Source of the DNA: Apophysomyces variabilis
Taxonomy: Eukaryota > Mucoromycota > Mucoromycetes > Mucorales > Mucoraceae
Direction of reading: 5' to 3'
DNA length: 64,000 nucleotides
NCBI GenBank assembly: GCA_002749535.1
Contig: MZZL01000401.1
Span: 107,639 to 171,638, forward strand
Shown: positions 27,718-40,432 of the stretch, piece after piece
Layout of the letters: each line of letters begins with the position of its first letter
Numbering within the stretch: position 1 is the first letter of the stretch
Notes under the pieces: model-generated
Told to the model about the DNA's origin: nothing
Databases searched by the model: none
Seen by the model: only the letters and a program-made list of their open reading frames with translations
Program-made: the position numbers and the translations under genes

Positions 27718-30467
27718 ATGATGAAAGGCCTGAAAGGAGTTGTATCCTTTTCATTACCAAAACGACTATATTTGTATCTACTTGCTATTATTCCTTTAAC
27801 CATTGATGTTTCAGCTTTCCAGAAACAGACCTTCGACAATAACAACAAATGAGAAGCAATCTCAGCCCCAAGAAACAATCATCCAACCGGAACAGAAGGA
27901 ATCAGTACCCAAGGGTCTAAATTCCCTTTCACCTTCTCTTAACACAACTACAGCATCGCTTTTATCTTCGCAGACTGCTCCGATGCCAATGACCCATCAT
28001 GACATGCCCGCAATCAGTATCGACGTGGTATGCCGCGCTTTCCCAATGATTTACTTGGTTTCATAGCTAAAGTGAGGAATCGGTAAATTCGTTTGTTATC
28101 TAGTCAAAGTCGCCTCGTGCTACCTCACATGGACCATCGGTTTCTTTTTCGCATAAACCTACTGAGCGTGATATACCTAAGACCGGTGCGTTGAGTCGAC
28201 TAAAAAATGCCCCAAAAGATCAAATCCCGATCAGCAAAGCACCGCGAAGACAAAAATCATCCCGATTTTATGTCACAGAAAAGGTGCAAATGGAAAAGTC
28301 CCCCGGATTTCATGGTAAATATGAGGAAGACATGATCTGGAAGCAATTGAAGATTGACTTATGGTCCAATTTCTTCTCGCTATATCCAACAAATCCAAAA
28401 AGAGGTTCCGCCCCATCTGCGACAAGACTTGTTCATACAAAAGATACGTCAATGTATGGTACTATTTGATTTTAGTGACGCAGCTTCGGAATTGAGAGAG
28501 AAAGAAATTAAGCGTCAGACATTGCAAGAAATTTTGGAATACGTCTCGAGAAATCGTGGCGTGTTAGCAGATGCAGTCTATCCCGAAGTGGTGCAGATGG
28601 TTAGCCTCATGCTGCAAAAGCGATCTGTAGATAATCTGATCGATTCGCACACTAGTTTTCGGTCAATCTATTTCGAACTATCCCTCCTCAAGTGAATCCT
28701 GTTGGAGATGCTTTTGATCCCGAAGAAGATGAACCGGTTTTAGAGCTGGCCTGGCCCCATTTGCAGATTGTCTACGAATTCTTCCTGCGTTTCTTAGAGT
28801 CGCCTGATTTTAATGTTAATTGTGCTAAAAGGCACATAGACCAAAGGTTTATCCTTCAGGTAAGCAGGACATAATTCGTTTCGAAGACTGAATGAGTTAT
28901 CAGTTGTTGGATCTATTTGACAGTGAGGATCCTCGTGAACGGGATTTCCTAAAAACCACGCTCCATCGTATCTACGGGAAGTTCCTTAATCTACGGGCTT
29001 TCATCCGTCGATCCATCAACAACATCTTCTTCCAGTTTATATACGAAACTGAACACCACAATGGTGTTTCAGAACTATTGGAGATCCTCGGCAGTATTAT
29101 TAATGGATTCGCATTGCCTCTCAAGGAAGAGCATAAACTATTTTTGATGCGCGTACTGATCCCACTTCATAAAGTCAAGCCATTAGTCCTATATCACCCT
29201 CAGCTTTCGTATTGCGTAGTTCAATTCCTTGAAAAAGATCCAACGTTAGCACATGAGGTATTCCAAGAGAGTTTTGGCCCTTACCAACCTGACATGACGA
29301 TATAGGTGATGACAAGGCTTTTGAGATATTGGCCAAAGGTCAATAGTCCTAAGGAAGTGATGTTCTTGAACGAATTTGAAGAGATACTTGATGTTATTGA
29401 TAGCTATGAGTTTCAACAGATCATGGTCCCCTTGTTTGTCAAACTGGGACAATGTATTGCAAGTCCTCATTTTCAGGTAAGTACTTTCTAGGATTAACTT
29501 GGCTAATCACCATCCGATTCAAGGTTGCAGAGCGTGCATTGTATTACTGGAACAATGAATATCTTGTCAGTTTGATGGCACAGAATATCAACATTATAAT
29601 GCCAATCATTTTCCCCACGCTGTACAGGACTTCTAAAACGCACTGGAATAAGTAGGCTACTTTTACTTTCGTTTCAGTAGCAATACTAAATCTGGATCTA
29701 GAACGATCCTTGGACTTGTGTACAATGCACTAAAATTGTGTATGGATATTGATCCACCTTTGTTTGACGAATGTGCCAACCACTATAAGCAACAGCGCCA
29801 ACTGTAAGGCATCGAAAGAAGAAGAATACAGGGATTTATCATTCTTTATAACAATATCTATAGGGAACGTAAGCGTCAAAAGGAGCGCGAAGACAACTGG
29901 AAAGCATTGAAGCAGAAGGTGGACATGAATCATCATGTTATGCCATTCGAGGATAGCCAAGCCGTTCTTGGTGACTATTCGTTCCCACCAAAACATGGTA
30001 CGTGTAGTAGTTGTTGATGTCATTCCACGTGCGGATGCAAATGTATAACCATAGCGTCAGTCGAATGTGATATAGAAGATGAGGACGATGCAATGACCGA
30101 GGAGGAAACGGATGCCGATGATTCGGATAATATAGCAGAGGAGAACACCGATCAAATCCACCCAGATATGGTGAGTGATTAGGTATACTATTGTTTTGGT
30201 TAGCTAAATTATGTTCAACAGCAACAATTTGAGCCTGCCCCGCAGCAATTCCAACAATTTAGACGCAAGTCGATTATACCCGTAGATGAAACCGTTAGTA
30301 ATGCTTTTTAGCTGTGCAACTGTGTCCTTACGAAATCCCAATTGATTTATTAGGTATTCAACGAATTATCCCGTCATGTGAGCTTAGACGAAGTTTTGAA
30401 CCATGCTCCAAGTACTTCGACAGACGTGGATATGCAATCCATGGATGGATCGTCCACTGGACAGTAG
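27718..30467 (+). CDS. RTS1: Protein phosphatase 2A regulatory subunit B56 (B')
   Basis: Thirteen exons: 27718-27738, 27815-28027, 28104-28314, 28403-28599, 28656-28859, 28904-29257, 29306-29476, 29524-29651, 29702-29803, 29864-29997, 30055-30170, 30222-30293 and 30354-30467. They join in phase to 678 residues. A Ser/Pro/Gln-rich N-terminus (about 1-140) precedes the HEAT-like B56 core (about 149-560). Hallmarks include [85 protein letters not shown] and [16 protein letters not shown]. An acidic C-terminal tail ([16 protein letters not shown]) ends it. B56 subunits direct PP2A to substrates in stress response and chromosome segregation (Rts1 in budding yeast, Par1 in fission yeast). Exon 1 has two successive ATGs; the second (27721) is an equally possible start. 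The first donor (GTTGTA) is weaker than the others. Confidence 0.92.
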
Positions 30468-31853: not shown

Positions 31854-34800
31854 ATGACTCAACCGTCAGACGAAACCGAACATACATATAATGTAAGCGA
31901 TCATTCCCCGTCAAACGACTTGCACGTCAATCATTAACCCATATCGCAGTCCATCTCGGATGTCTCTGCCGACTGGGTACAAGGCGTCCAAATTAACGGA
32001 AAGAAAGCAGAAAAGAACGCAGTCGAAATAGACAGAAACGGGACGATTTATTGCTTTCCTGACCATGGAACACTCAGTATTTCAGACGGAAAGATAGGCG
32101 AACCAGAGAATATCGGAAAACCAAAAGACGATTGTATGGGATTCGTGCCAGATAAACTACCCTTTCCAGGAACGCCAGAGTTCAAACATGCTGCCAGGAA
32201 TGCAGTTGACATATTGAACAAACAGCTGCATGATGAAGAGCCTATGTTGGAGATCCACGTACCCCGACGATACGTTAGTGCGCTGAGCAAGAAAAACCAT
32301 TTGACAAACCGCTGATGTGACACATGTCATCATAATAGATACTTTTACCTCCAGCCACCTTACGACCGACTGAAGGATACCAACAAGCGATTGACTATGC
32401 TTTACGATTGTCCGACGACCATGCTAAATTTGCGGAGCTACAAAACATTTTCAAAGCATTTGGGTATTTTTATCCGTATTGGATCGCCACAGGTAAAGAA
32501 GAATGCATGAGCGACTCTACGTGCAGGCCTAAATAAGTTTTTCTGCAGGTGGCAAATTTGTACATAAATCCTCCAAGGACACCAGCTTCGATATGGATAC
32601 GAGGAATAGGATCAGGGCTGTTGTAGAGCAACAGTTGGAATGGCAAGCATTTGGTATGGTACTCCCTATGATTTTCTGCAGGATCTAATCTATTGTCGGC
32701 AGGTGGTGACTTAAACCGATTACGGAAACCCATAGACGTTGAAGGCTGGTTGGAGAGCACGACAAAGCATCAGGCATTGATCATGCCATTGGACATAAAC
32801 CCAATATATAATCTTCTTGATAATTCTATTAGTTCGGAAATACAACGAATATACAAGGTACAATATTTGCAAGCACCACTACCACTTTCCGATCCATTAT
32901 TGCAAACTTCTTCTACCACTCCCGATGCTTCTCTTTCGCAAATGAGGTCTCGTATTGGCACCGCGAAAGGAGTTCATTTGGGGGGACGTTTATCCAAGGA
33001 GGATGCAGTCGAACTCATCAACGAAAACCTATTTGGAAAACTGCTGAGAGATGCAACTGTGGCAGGGAAACCACGCATAGAGTGTAGTGTGCGAAGAACA
33101 ATGCTTGGCAGCGATGTCAGTACTCATGCTATCCTCCGTACTGAATTTCCGGAACATTCACCAGAAAATATGGGATTCGTGAAAGGTGCCATAGATTCCT
33201 ATTTGAGTAAAATTGGCTGTAGTGTGCAACCTACTACGCGTGGGATTGATTACTTTGTTATGTATGTCATTTATGGAGAGGTCAGTAAACTGAAGTGTAA
33301 AAAAATTTTGCCCTATATATTGATCGTAATGATATAGTTAACGTTTGATCCAGAAATAATTAAGGTCACTGACAAATTAAAAGAAGCTGTGCAACAAGCT
33401 TTGGCTGTGAGCAAAGACTGTGAAAAATATCGAGCACTACAAGAAGTGTTTTCCAAGTTTGGTTATTACTACCCGTCAGCTATATCTCTAGGTAAGATTC
33501 CTGCGTAGCTTCGTTAAGTTGAACTTTGTTTTATTGTAGGCGGGCGGGCGTTATACAAGATCAACCAGAATGATCCACCGAAAGATTGGCTGGAAAAGAA
33601 CGGAATAGCAGCGATCAACCGAGCATTCAAGCGAAACATTTATGTGGAAACCACGCGAGTGGAGACCATCGGTAAGCAGATATGTGACGCAGATAAGGGC
33701 CAACAAGAGAAATTATTCAAATGGGCTATTCAGGTGGCAGTACTGAATTCACGGATTGTCGAGATTGGATAAATTCTATCAAAACCAATCAGACACGCAT
33801 ACAGTTTAAGTCCATGAAGCCTATTTACGAACTATTTGACGAAGATTTGAGATCGCAAATAAGGATTGTATACGACAAACATTACGATTACATCGATGAC
33901 TTTCCGCGGTTGACAAACGGAATACATTTTGACGGCGTGGAAGCAGACCAACAGGCAGTTACTCTTACCAAACACGATCCTTTCTCGAAATCTTTAATGC
34001 TGAAGAGATACACCAACGTAGTCAGTCGAGAGCGCATTCAATTATATACATCGACCAAGCCTAGTTTCATGAAATATTCATCTCTGGACATTGAAATATA
34101 CGATGAATTACCAGGAAGTGCTGGATTTAGAGCAGGTGCAGAGGCAATTTACAGGGAGCGATCCAATATCGGGCGGAAAACTCCCATCACTCCCCAGAAA
34201 CCTTATCATACAATGTATATAACGTATACAGAGGTAATTTAGTGGAAGCTATGCTTCATGATCCATTACTGACACGTGTGTTTTTGCGTTTCCCTAGTTA
34301 CATTTATATGATGAACTCATCCAAGCCAGTGAGAGTTTCAAGAAAGCGATTGACGAAGCATTACAAGTGAACCCAGCGGATCACGGGAGATATTACGCGT
34401 TACAGAACGTTTTCCAGCGATTTGGCTTTTACTATCCGTCCACCATCATATTTGGTAAGTAGCGCTCTTGAAAAGTATCATGAAACTTAACTTGAGATTA
34501 GGAGGCCGAATTGTTCGGAAAGCCGGGGATGATATTGAACAAGAACGGCGGAATGGTAGGGTGAAATAGGTACCCAGAAGATTTGATGAACCTTCGATGT
34601 TGTTATAGATAATGGTCCGCTTATAACCGAGATTGGCGAAAATAACAAACCTGGTAAAGAAGGTGATAGTATAATTGCTTCTCTTAAAGCATCACTTGAG
34701 GAAGGTGAGCTGTGGGAGACAGTTGGTATGTTGAATTAGTATCATAATGGTGAACGTCACTGAAAACGCTTCCTAACTTCAGGTGGTGATGGGCACTTGT

Positions 34801-37081
34801 TGCTTTGGCGCGATATCGACAATTGGATAGAAAGTATACAATCTAATCAAGTCGCTATACAACACAAGGGTTTGAAACCGCTTTACGAGTTGTTGGATAA
34901 GGATCAACGGCGCCAAGTCCAACAAATCTACGAAGATATCATCTTAGACGACGATTATGTAGCGTATAATTACACACTGGAAACAAAAGTATGCGGGCAA
35001 TTTCTGAGAGCTCGGCAACGGAATTCTTCCAGGAAAATAACTGTATTGGTAGGTGTAGTTTATTGTGGTAAGGATACTAAAGCTATCATAGATGAGGGAA
35101 CTATCGCAAGATTTATTGAAGAAATGCTTTTCCGATAGTAGCAGCGCAATTGAGTACTGTCAGCGTGCATGTTCTGAACTTGGATTTCCTGTTCTTGATG
35201 ACAAGGTTACGAGTAAGGTATATAATTTTAATTACTGATAATCTGATATCTAACTTCCCGACAAGGTGATCCGCATTTACTGCTCGTTTAACAGCTTAGC
35301 ACAAAATAAGCGGCAGCGTTACCCATCGGTCAGTTCAAAGGAAAAGGAGCCTTGCCAATGGTGCATGTATCTTTTTAAGAACGACAACGATCAGTGGCAA
35401 TTTGACGAGGAGGAATCTCAGCATAGTCACCCCCTGGAGATACCGAAAGGTAACAGAAATATTCCAACGAGTAAATTAATTTGATATTCTAGAAACCGGC
35501 TATGACGAGGACCTCATACCGGCCATGATCATCAAGCTAATCCCGGATCAAGTGTGTCGCGAAGGGGAAGAACCTTCGAAGTTCGTGCGGTACGGTGATG
35601 TGGTTCGGTTGAAATATATACAACAAGATGACGGTTCAGTTACTCCTGGAATGGGCCTAATTCAAGCAAGTGCACTCCGAGTATTTGATGGGTCAAAGCC
35701 TTTTCCTAAAGGAAATTCGCCATTTGACAAAGATACTTCGAACAAGGGCAAAGACGTTGACTTCCAATGGTATAAAAGGGAAACCACTCGGTTTTGTATA
35801 AAATATATTTATGAGAAGCTTAGGAAAATTGTTGCCTGTTCAGCCTTTGCAGACTTTTCTGCCAGCGATGAAAGTGAGTCGGAATGCCATGACAATATTG
35901 AGGTTGCAAGTAAGTAATGTTGCTCGTTGGACGCAGCTAATAACTTACACACCGTTCAAGGTCAACACTCAATACCTGAGGACTTGAATAATATACTGAA
36001 GAACCATAATCATGTCCAAAACAATGCTGCGATCTTATTCGAAAGCTTGATAACTGTAGATGGAAACAAGAAGCTATATTTAGATGGTCGCACAGGTCGC
36101 TTCTCTCTCCGTCTGCAGAAATACGCGTCGGAGCCTATCTCTGACACGATTGCATGGTATGTTCGAACGGTCAACGAATGCGAGATTTTGTGGAAGCTAG
36201 AAAATTTCGATACTGGAAAATCCAAAGAAGAGAAGGAGTTCGACACTTTCAAGAAAAAGGCTGAAAACAACGATCCAAACTATCAGTATCTTGTCGGTCA
36301 CTCATTGCTTTATGGTCTTCGGGGCCAAATGGTTGACAGGCAAGGTGCAGTGCACTATCTGGAAAGGGCCATAAACCAAGGGCATCATCAAGCACATTTT
36401 GAACTTGGCAAATTATGGTGGACTACGGGCAAATATACTGAAGCTATGGATTTATTCAAGCGAGCGGTATACCTGCCTGTTATTGAGACATGCCGTCAAT
36501 TGGGAGATATATACCACGCAGGGCTTTCACTACCTCAAAAGCTCGGTAACTACAATATTCCAAAAGACCGAAAAAAAGCATTTATGTACTATGCTATCGG
36601 AGGCATATTTGGTGATTCTAAGGCGGCGCTCATAGCGGGCTCCTACCTCGAGCAAGGGTATCATGAAGATCTTGGGATCGACTACGAGAAAGCAATGCGC
36701 TGGTACGAGTATGTCAGACAGAAATACGACGGCCCTCATGCCGAGCTGAGAATCGGTAAATTGAAGCATCTTTTGGCGAGCAAAACCAAGGATCCTTTGG
36801 AAGCTGAGAAGTTCCAAAAACAAGCGTACAGTTCTTTTGAAGCAGCAGCAGTGTCAGATCCTTCGGCAAAATTTATGGTGGCAGCATACCATCTGTATGG
36901 CTTAGGTGGACATAAAAAGGATCTAGCGCTCGGATATCACATATTAGCGAGTCTTACAGAGTCTGGCTTTCTCCCGGCCCTAGCTGGATTAGCTGAATGT
37001 TATGCCAAAGGCATGGGTGTTGAGCAAGACCCCGAAATGGAAGCCATGTTTTTAAAGCTTTCAGGTCGTAAAACTACGTAG
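31854..37081 (+). CDS. MACPF-like/FAR1-type zinc finger/Sel1-repeat fusion protein
   Basis: Sixteen exons: 31854-31892, 31950-32273, 32339-32492, 32549-32653, 32703-33280, 33338-33491, 33540-33671, 33734-34233, 34298-34454, 34502-34555, 34609-34725, 34783-35048, 35092-35217, 35266-35449, 35493-35909 and 35961-37081. They join in phase to 1,475 residues. After an N-terminal segment (1-121), one module occurs three times (about 122-400, 401-662, 663-860). Each has LQ.VF..FGYYYP..I.LGGR, the MACPF-like signature, then DWINSIKTNQ-type and KPIYELFDEDLR-type segments. Residues about 865-960 fit a FAR1-type WRKY-GCM1 zinc finger (C908, C932/C935, HSH at 955-957). Residues about 964-1103 contain a possible MIR-like VRYGDVVRLK. 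Residues 1110-1475 are Sel1-like helical repeats. No signal peptide or kinase domain. Sel1 repeats are protein scaffolds; MACPF-like units might bind membranes. The role is unknown. Confidence 0.75.
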
Positions 37082-37725: not shown

Positions 37726-39514
37726 AACAGCCGATCGAGGAATGATCACAAAAGTATTGCAAAAGTTGTAGTTGATGATACCAAACATAGTCTTTGTACC
37801 AATAAATACCAGTCTCTATAGCTTTGAACGTGTTAGCGGAACACAATACATGAAGGATAAAGCATTACATGGTACATATAATTTGCAATCATAGTCTTAG
37901 AAGTTTTCTGGCATAGAAAATAATGTCATGCAAGTCAATGATTAATTGATGCGTAGCCGCATCACTACTAGGCGACTGCCCCTCAGTCCGGAACCTTGGA
38001 GATGTTACGCGAACGGCCAACTTAATCGCACTAACAATTTCTATAATTCAAAGGCAATCAATTATATTCAAAAAGCGATGACTCTTGTTATGGGCTACTA
38101 GTTGATAATCCTGGGATACTCAAGATTCATCGGAAATTGCATAATTTCGCTGTATCGCCGCCTGCTCCATGGAATAGCTATTACTATCCACAATACAATC
38201 TAAACTATGTGAAGCATGAAACATTACCAGTACTTTGATATCCCTTGAAATACAAAAAACTTTGCTTTACATAGTAAGAGCAGGCTTTGAGTTTACTCGG
38301 ACGACAGTCGTGATTAGGCTCCCTGGAGATGTCTTTACCTGATCGAAACTCAGACGTTTGCATTCTTGCCCCGGAACTTCTGCATATGTGCACGACGATC
38401 AAGCAATAGAGTTAAGATCTCTAACTTTATCGTCACTGGCTTTCACGGAAGATATTATTTTCATTACCTATTGAATGTGATACTTGGTAACATGTTAGAT
38501 TGTAGAAATGCTACGGATGACGAAATGATTCCGTCAACTGTGTCCTGATCTTCGGTATTAGTATACGCCAAAATATCAATCGTATACAGAGTATATGGCA
38601 CGTGGTAAACATTATGAGATGATTAAACTGAGCGTTCCCTGGCGCCGGAGTGTTCAGGTAAAAAGCGGCGAACGCTTACTGTGGAACGTCAGATTTTTCT
38701 ACCTTAAACACATGGACGATCGCTTAAGACTTGCCATTTTGATTTCAGATCTCGTTGTCGAGTAGTACCATCGCAATAACCGACTGACAACATATACAGC
38801 AGACGTTGGAAAATGCGGAATGGTACAAACAGGATAACACCTATAGAGAATCACTTTCTAAAAGCGGTTACCAGACTTTTACCCTCATTGATGGATTAAT
38901 GATCGCACATGGCATAGTCCCTATAGTGATCGAGTGCACCGTTACACAATAAATATTGAAAATATTGCGCGTCATGAGAACAAAATGGAGTCAATCATTA
39001 TGAGAAAATTTTTTTGAAAGGGAGCTTCAGACGTGATGGAACACAAAATTATTTCGCAACGAGTCGCGGCCATTGAGCCTTTTGGGAGATGATCGGGCTC
39101 CATTGATCGCACGTACTTTGATTCTTTCATCTATGCTCCATTGATTTGTAAGCCGAAAGCTGTAAAAATAAAGAGCAATAGCCAAATCATTAGATGCAGG
39201 TAGAGATGACCGTGGTTGGATATGCAACTGAGGTTAACTTGGTTTGCAGATGAATGAATTAATGGGTTTGGATCTCTAGGTTTCCGATACGAAAAAAGGG
39301 ACCATCTCTGAGTTCGTTATTGCAACATGGGCATCCCACATTTCGTGCTACCGATCCTTTATCGACTATGGTCGTACAGACGAAATTAGCGGAGGTGCTT
39401 TAGCCATCGCGCAACATATAAAAGCATTCAAAAGCAAGAAGCAAAGAACATCATCAACCAAACAACGCATCTCATCTTCTCTCTTGCCTTCCTTCTCATT
39501 TTGTCTGCCAAATA
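37726..39514. other. Intergenic spacer upstream of the CAP gene
   Basis: About 1.8 kb of AT-rich sequence with short ORFs only and no recognised element apart from the TATA box of the CAP gene near its right end. The long 5' region may hold regulatory sites for the CAP gene. Confidence 0.4.
39417..39424 (+). promoter_or_regulatory. TATA box of the CAP/PR-1 gene
   Basis: TATAAAAG lies 91 nt before the ATG at 39515 in an otherwise mixed context. A strong TATA box fits a highly regulated secreted-protein gene. Most other genes in the window lack one this clear. Confidence 0.6.
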
Positions 39515-40432
39515 ATGGTCTCCTACACTTTCCTTGCTGCTCCTGCCATTGCGGTCCTGGCGATCGCTACTCAACTTGTCGAGGCTAGTCCTTACGAATA
39601 CTACTACTACTATGGTGAGGGCAATCAGGTCCAAACTCACCGTGGTCAACCCCATCATGGAAACAACGGTAACCACGGAAACCATTACGGTAATCACGAA
39701 AACCGTGGTCAAACCCACCGTGGCCAGAAAAAGCCTAGCCAGAAGAAGAAACCCAGCCAGAAGAAACCTAACCAGGAGAAACCTAACCAGAAGAAACCTA
39801 ACCAGAAAAACCGTGGCCACAATAACGGCTACTACAACGGCGGTTACTATGACGGTGGCTACTACGACGGCGGTTATGACAATGGCGGCTACTACGACGG
39901 CGGCTATGACAACGGCGGCTATGACAACGGCGGTTATAATAACGGTGGCGGCTATAACAACGGTGGCCAGAACAACGGTGGCGGCCATAACAACGGCGGT
40001 CAGAATACCGGTTCCCAAAAGGGTTCTGCTACAACGGATAGCCAAGCCATCGTGCAGATCCACAACCAAATGCGTGCTCAACACTCTGCCCCTCCTCTCA
40101 AGTGGAGCAGCACCTTGGCCGATTACGCTCAAAACTGGTCCAATGGCTGCCGCTTCGAGCACAGCCACGGAGACTATGGTGAGAACCTTGCTTACGGTTA
40201 TCCCAGCTGGAACGCATCGATCACTGCCTGGTACGACGAATACAAGCAGTACAACTACAACAACCCTGGATTCAGCGGACAAACTGGTCACTTCACCCAG
40301 GTCGTTTGGAAGGGCACCACAGAAATCGGTTGTGGTGTGACCAACTGCCCTAACCTCGGCCCCCTCTACACCTGCTCTTACAACCCTCCTGGAAATGTCC
40401 AGGGACAATTCCAGCAGAACGTCTTGCCATAA
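39515..40432 (+). CDS. Secreted CAP/PR-1 (SCP/TAPS) domain protein with Gly-Tyr-Asn repeat linker
   Basis: Single-exon gene of 305 residues. Residues 1-25 form a signal peptide (hydrophobic AAPAIAVLAIAT, cleavage near VEAS). A YYYYYGEG segment, a His/Gly/Asn stretch and Lys-Pro repeats of the NQKKP type (about 70-95) follow. Then comes a GGYYDGGYDNGG-like repeat (about 105-165). The CAP domain covers about 178-305, with HNQMRAQHSAPPLKWSSTLA, YGENLAYGY, GHFTQVVWKGTTEIGCGV and the disulphide-linked YTCSYNPPGN end. Family knowledge: secreted PR-1-like proteins of fungi bind sterols or fatty acids in the wall or medium. The linker DNA is a coding minisatellite, which also opens long spurious frames on the other phase and strand. 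A polyadenylation signal AATAAA lies at 40443-40448. Confidence 0.9.
   Translation: MVSYTFLAAPAIAVLAIATQLVEASPYEYYYYYGEGNQVQTHRGQPHHGNNGNHGNHYGNHENRGQTHRGQKKPSQKKKPSQKKPNQEKPNQKKPNQKNRGHNNGYYNGGYYDGGYYDGGYDNGGYYDGGYDNGGYDNGGYNNGGGYNNGGQNNGGGHNNGGQNTGSQKGSATTDSQAIVQIHNQMRAQHSAPPLKWSSTLADYAQNWSNGCRFEHSHGDYGENLAYGYPSWNASITAWYDEYKQYNYNNPGFSGQTGHFTQVVWKGTTEIGCGVTNCPNLGPLYTCSYNPPGNVQGQFQQNVLP
39820..40010 (+). repeat. Coding minisatellite in the CAP gene linker
   Basis: Tandem imperfect units such as GGCGGTTATGACAACGGC encode GGY(Y/D)(D/N)GG repeats. Differences between units are mostly at third bases or D/N swaps. Length change between strains is likely at this kind of array. Confidence 0.7.

Follow-up and report, generated by a model that had tools for sequence, protein, structure and literature searches.

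The 64,000-nucleotide stretch of Apophysomyces variabilis DNA analysed here (the window) contains on its forward strand a gene at 31854..37081 for which a GT-AG model of 17 exons encodes 1457 amino acids with no internal stops. The exons lie at 31854-31892, 31950-32273, 32339-32492, 32549-32653, 32703-33280 and 33338-33491 (exons 1-6), 33540-33671, 33734-34233, 34298-34454, 34502-34555, 34609-34725 and 34783-35048 (exons 7-12), and 35092-35217, 35266-35449, 35493-35769, 35824-35909 and 35961-37081 (exons 13-17), all on the + strand, as are the features that follow. An N-terminal segment and three MACPF-like units occupy 31950..35048, as judged from Pfam, motif scans and a match to pleurotolysin B on the relative P0033. 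Exon 13 (35092..35217; 126 nt, phase 0-0) encodes the helix and first strand of a FAR1-like domain, and exon 14 (35266..35449) its zinc-ligand part, C-x23-C-x22-H-x-H, assigned by ligand conservation. The main part of a beta-trefoil of the MIR/RyR/CSL-like kind comes next at 35493..36113, its limits being approximate because they were placed from VIA rows on P0033, and a Sel1 repeat block at 36186..37078 completes the protein. Together the two GT-AG exons 35092-35217 and 35266-35449 provide residues 861-963 and continue the reading frame of the preceding MACPF-like modules into the Sel1 part beyond, and they encode all of the peptides quoted when the finger was first proposed (FSDSSSAIEYCQRACSELGF, IYCSF, RYPSVSS, PCQWCMYL, QWQF and QHSH). 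The two exons of the initial annotation hold. Comparison with the annotated A. ossiformis protein P0001 reveals a further intron in the C-terminal part (35770-35823), so that the product has 1457 residues rather than 1475. Over its length the window protein shares 94% identity with P0001. The two models differ at the exon 12 donor, where P0002 supports the window model and P0003 does so partly; the database gene model of P0001 (A. ossiformis EC973_002405) omits the end of exon 12, which is kept in P0002 and partly in P0003.

This single reading frame has to be weighed against a division into two genes, the first ending after exon 12 and the second beginning at the ATG of exon 13. Exon 13 does open with ATG in both the window and P0001, and 3 of 30 annotated proteins (P0026, P0029 and P0030) stop near the exon 12/13 border. 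However, 26 of the 30 continue through it, joining MACPF-like units, finger and Sel1 in one gene as had been claimed, and methionine is the first residue of exon 13 in 2 of 18 paralogue models (and lies within three residues of that place in 4 of 18). In addition, a phase-0 intron occupies the border, measuring 45-51 nt in 13 of 18 loci and 43 nt in the window gene, leaving little room for a promoter between exons 12 and 13. A two-gene arrangement at the window locus is disfavoured to the point of being scarcely credible.

The proposed partners of the finger are borne out by Pfam scores above the curated cut-offs. MACPF_1 matches the window protein in three stretches (3.2e-16; 60.3 bits vs a cut-off of 27.5), MACPF matches at 7e-11 (43.1 vs 21.5 bits) and Sel1 at 6.2e-10 (39.7 vs 30.7 bits). 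A signature-like FGxxY-x6-GG occurs at residues 162, 441 and 704, and in each of the three units the GG is followed by a W. The published MACPF signature is Y(F)-G-T(S)-H-X7-G-G (PMC5483515); a motif scan for this canonical form gave no hit in 18 gene models or in 33 proteins. Of the 18 models, 10 have three occurrences of the FGxxY-x6-GG form, 6 have two and 2 have one; a wider pattern is found three times in 15 of 18. We therefore use the label MACPF-like, as the Pfam and fold matches stand and the canonical signature is absent. The fold match of this part, obtained with the relative P0033, is to pleurotolysin B. With that protein and the fungal MACPF-like domain PF22693 the window protein shares the Pfam score, the fold match, the glycine pattern of the signature and the GG-then-W feature, whereas it differs in having three units per chain, in the replacement of the signature Thr/His and in the absence of a hydrophobic N-terminus.

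The earlier domain layout contained no beta-trefoil, and here it needs amending, as one seems to surround the finger. VIA on the AlphaFold model of P0033 (mean pLDDT 65) gave 13 beta-trefoil rows that start at residues 340-346 and end at residues 682-689, and the first strand of the trefoil is predicted ahead of the FAR1-like insert, close to the end of exon 12. This model suggests that the FAR1-like domain is inserted within the trefoil. The trefoil assignment is a fold match, with no Pfam MIR match to the region at E<=1; it differs from MIR/RyR/CSL beta-trefoils in this respect, and also in that the FAR1-like domain appears to interrupt it after the first strand.

Is the inserted domain really of FAR1 type? 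The FAR1 DNA-binding domain (PF03101) belongs to the WRKY-GCM1 class. Pfam FAR1 matches exons 13-14 with E=0.0027 and 18.8 bits, under the curated cut-off of 28.1 bits, and the whole window protein with E=0.016. Of 20 family copies scanned, 6 give a FAR1 match at E<=0.1, the best with E 0.0033 and 18.6 bits, and none reaches the cut-off. A convergent CCHH domain, unrelated to FAR1 by descent, could account for such sub-threshold scores, and also for the few copies whose matches to other zinc families are slightly stronger than the best FAR1 match among the 20 (zf-C2H2_2 at E 0.0013 in 2 of 20 copies, BIR at E 0.0019 in 1 of 20, vs 0.0033). Convergence would likewise sit easily with the fold search on an exon-14 fragment model (pLDDT 69), which was uninformative in that it returned unrelated proteins; PDB sequence searches with the domain gave no match below E 0.6. 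Against convergence, a 20-copy family profile (17 loci, the window, P0002 and P0003) aligns by hhalign at 99.7% over 107 columns, the whole domain, to L019, a stand-alone gene of the same genome whose FAR1 domain scores 30.5 bits and is thus above the Pfam cut-off. The profile score for L019 is 148.5, compared with 18.1 for the best of 100 shuffles of its domain. Ligands, aromatic residues, exon length and an intron position match as well. We consider convergence very improbable, and call the domain FAR1-like: homologous to FAR1 via L019 but, because the family copies fall under the cut-off, not a Pfam member.

Conservation within the family agrees with the CCHH order of FAR1/WRKY-GCM1 type read from the DNA at the outset. 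All four ligands are intact in 36 of 45 aligned copies, rows that were taken without selecting for complete domains, and in 37 after correction of one extraction (L020, where re-reading the DNA finds HNH present). Among the nine incomplete rows, the first Cys falls in a gap of the annotated model in four (P0007, P0018, P0023 and P0028), L027 is a fragment, and L028, L033 and P0025 have altered ligands. A 21-row alignment, for which 20 proteins with a complete domain were selected, shows no variation at two Cys, two His, two Trp and one Phe. The rows are not independent, P0017 and P0022 having their FAR segment in common and several proteins and loci being orthologs. In the P0033 model the domain has a helix (393-406) and strands at 410-417, 420-427, 448-456 and 462-466, followed by the His pair, with block pLDDT 71-90 outside the loop 429-446 and a drop to 57 at the His pair; we take this predicted series of a helix and four strands to be the WRKY-GCM1 order, of which the exon-14 fold search gave no confirmation. 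The family shares with PF03101 the predicted helix/strand order, the C-C-H-x-H ligands, the W-x-F strand and the GF before the first strand. It differs in scoring under the Pfam cut-off, in being acidic on average, and in that a domain that usually heads a transposase or regulator is here nested in a cytosolic-looking scaffold protein.

The initial annotation took the fusion for a capture in one protein. The fusion is real, but it is a property of a whole expanded family. When the 103-residue domain was searched against this genome, 32 matches had E<=1. Twenty stretches were read as DNA, of which 18 have MACPF-like modules and a FAR1-like part in the same order; a Sel1 block follows in 17 of these 18 (for L023 as judged from the rows listed). 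Spliced alignment yields near-full-length models of 1309-1454 residues with no stops for 17 of the 18 MACPF-bearing paralogue loci, the exception being the fragment L027. Counted across the genome, a FAR1-like match (E<=1) lies between the third MACPF-like unit (M3) and Sel1 in 19 of 20 loci; some of the 19 matches are weak, with E up to 0.33, and 18 of the 19 were also read as DNA. The M3, FAR and Sel1 matches were paired by hand, and all counts for the genome are minimum values. The locus with M3 and Sel1 lacking a FAR1-like match is on contig C59 near 653-655 kb. About ten more MACPF-like places, on contigs C75, C91, C94, C95 and C108, have no Sel1 or FAR1-like matches nearby and perhaps constitute a second, FAR-less MACPF group.

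The same domain order was also sought in annotated proteins. The profile search yielded 30 proteins, all from Apophysomyces. FAR lies between M3 and the trefoil and Sel1 in 26 of them; in four of these 26 it is present in part, and some of the 26 are missing N-terminal parts. The remaining four are the three truncated proteins mentioned above, which end near the start of the domain, and P0027, in which trefoil and Sel1 are present and FAR is absent. All 33 proteins found are from Apophysomyces (A. ossiformis; strains BC1015, BC1021 and BC1034), a restriction that holds within relatives having exact short words in common, the kind that the protein searches detect. The combination was described as unfamiliar at the outset, and the literature searches turned up no MACPF-like/FAR1/Sel1 fusion.

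A midpoint-rooted tree of 36 rows, based on the N-terminal 880 residues of 18 of the 33 proteins, 17 of the 18 loci and the window, contains nine pairs at 100/100 that each consist of one gene of the window genome and one A. ossiformis gene. These pairs indicate that much of the family expansion is older than the split from A. ossiformis. Eight of them are 78-94% identical and the ninth, L014-P0003, is 58% identical. Over 8 ortholog pairs, with columns gapped in a model excluded, identity is 87% in FAR, 91-93% in the MACPF units, 91% in Sel1 and 83% in the trefoil; lying between the trefoil and the MACPF and Sel1 parts, the FAR domain is evidently constrained, yet is not the slowest part of the protein. 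P0027 pairs with L024 (90/88) inside an eight-member group (100/99) whose other members carry the FAR domain, which makes loss of the domain likelier than ancestral absence. The ligand-altered L028, L033 and P0025 belong to the same group of eight, and in the branch of these and P0027 the domain has perhaps decayed stepwise.

Where did the domain come from? Two earlier papers describe FAR1 heads in MULE transposases and in transcription factors domesticated from them (PMC6446971, PMC10027918). The closest relatives found are two stand-alone FAR1 genes of the same genome, L019 (contig C75 near 798 kb) and L030 (C95 near 3.04 Mb; 24.6 bits, below the Pfam cut-off). Both have a FAR1 head, a further segment in common and Q/P/S/H-rich tails, and Pfam scans covering 262 residues of one and 277 of the other gave FAR1 and no other domain; we infer that they are regulators, possibly uncharacterised ones of this mould. 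In common with the family they have a 126-nt exon, a phase-0 intron after it and two helix cysteines, in addition to the whole-domain profile match of L019. The residue at which this intron lies is the same in all 18 of 18 loci, in the window gene and in both L019 and L030. The exon length in L030 was taken partly by eye, starting from the acceptor, and the start of the L019 exon is either an acceptor or a start codon. The two genes differ from the family in being basic and in having the conserved segment and Q/P/S/H-rich tails, with no match to MACPF or Sel1 modules at their loci. For the intron upstream of the 126-nt exon, residue and phase agree in 13 of 18 loci, whereas in the other five the aligner put it elsewhere or did not place it. 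Exon shuffling would be expected to leave just such an exon, symmetrical (0-0) and constant in length.

These data run counter to the earlier idea that the finger came from the head of a MULE transposase. The MULE family has no Pfam match in the window protein at E<=1, and a DDE transposase domain is found in L002, which has a FAR1/AFT-type head with the CCHH ligands and overall layout of the family. Compared by profile, this one MULE head aligns with the family by hhalign at 92.8% over 95 columns, and its score of 49.0 exceeds all 100 shuffles (best 23.4), but is far under the 148.5 of L019. Moreover, the L002 head lacks both the intron and the pair of helix cysteines common to the family, L019 and L030, and a MULE domain comes after it. 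Direct capture from a MULE head seems improbable, although L019 and L030 might in turn descend from old MULEs. That exons 13-14 are a true FAR1-type zinc domain originating in a host FAR1 gene, identity and origin being taken as one claim, we regard as likely. As for the capture itself, we infer that a host FAR1 gene resembling L019 and L030 would have passed the domain to the family ancestor one exon at a time. The captured exons may have landed in a beta-trefoil loop between the three MACPF-like units and the Sel1 scaffold, and the family would then have expanded to about 20 loci, much of this before the split from A. ossiformis.

The first strand contacts DNA in the WRKY class, and the charge of the family domain is informative in this regard. 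Its net charge averages -6.6 over 36 rows (range -16 to +2; P0005, P0007, P0018, P0023, P0025, P0028, L020, L027 and L033 of the 45 rows are excluded), vs +8, +7, +6 and +12 in near-complete FAR1 heads of the same genome and +3 in a 63-residue piece, a set without L004. The mean charge of the first strand is -1.5 (43 of 45 rows; range -5 to +4), vs +1, +1 and +2 in FAR1 heads. An acidic domain with an acidic first strand favours a protein-contact or structural role over DNA binding. The alternative, that the domain still binds nucleic acid and the protein is a sensor or nuclear adaptor, is nonetheless in keeping with the four ligands and aromatic core being intact in most copies, with a basic first strand in some (P0023 +4, P0002 +3), with nearest relatives that look like gene regulators, and with the window copy being only mildly acidic (net charge -2, first strand 0; its ortholog is net 0). 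The charge argument is indeed weakest for the window gene itself. We know of no role in transcription for the other parts of the family. Given the mean charges, of which that of the domain lies far from the +3 to +12 of the five FAR1 heads, DNA binding by the family domain appears unlikely on sequence grounds, and we also think the sensor or nuclear adaptor unlikely. The initial annotation had offered a sensor or adaptor with nucleic-acid binding and a protein-binding use of the fold as equally open; charge opposes the first option and favours the second.

In the window protein the N-terminus is not hydrophobic, and hydropathy stays at or below 1.2 in every 19-residue stretch. With no hydrophobic start and no membrane helix by hydropathy, it is presumably cytosolic. 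Our preferred reading, to which we assign a probability of roughly 0.68, is that a host FAR1 domain, captured as exons, has been put to a new use in protein contact or structure within a cytosolic scaffold protein. Without its former basic face, the domain may act as a zinc-stabilised protein-contact or structural knob; a protein-contact role of this putative zinc domain is, taken on its own, slightly short of an even bet. Partner binding might then fall to the trefoil, FAR1 knob and Sel1 repeats, and assembly or action on membranes to the MACPF-like array. The domain is kept across a gene family and the symmetrical 126-nt exon looks like the unit of capture. If the reuse reading is right, exon shuffling moved the zinc domain of a regulator into a MACPF-Sel1 scaffold, after which its charge changed. 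Proteins that the source databases name hypothetical, uncharacterized, MACPF-like or MACPF domain-containing would also gain named and testable parts.

A bolder proposal, which we consider improbable, is that Apophysomyces possesses about 20 diversified, lineage-specific intracellular recognition proteins in which the Sel1 repeats, together with the trefoil and the FAR1 knob captured in it, would read a cue, perhaps non-self, and switch the triple MACPF-like array. If true, these proteins would correspond, in a mould, to sensor-executor immune proteins, and a domesticated DNA-binding domain would serve as their recognition surface. Elsewhere in the window, an open frame at 28892-29302 (+) encodes part of a PP2A B56 regulatory subunit (PF01603, 4.3e-61), and an ORF at 39512-40429 (+) has a hydrophobic start and a long Gly/Asn/Tyr-rich repeat stretch followed by a CAP (cysteine-rich secretory protein) domain (Pfam PF00188, 7.1e-21).
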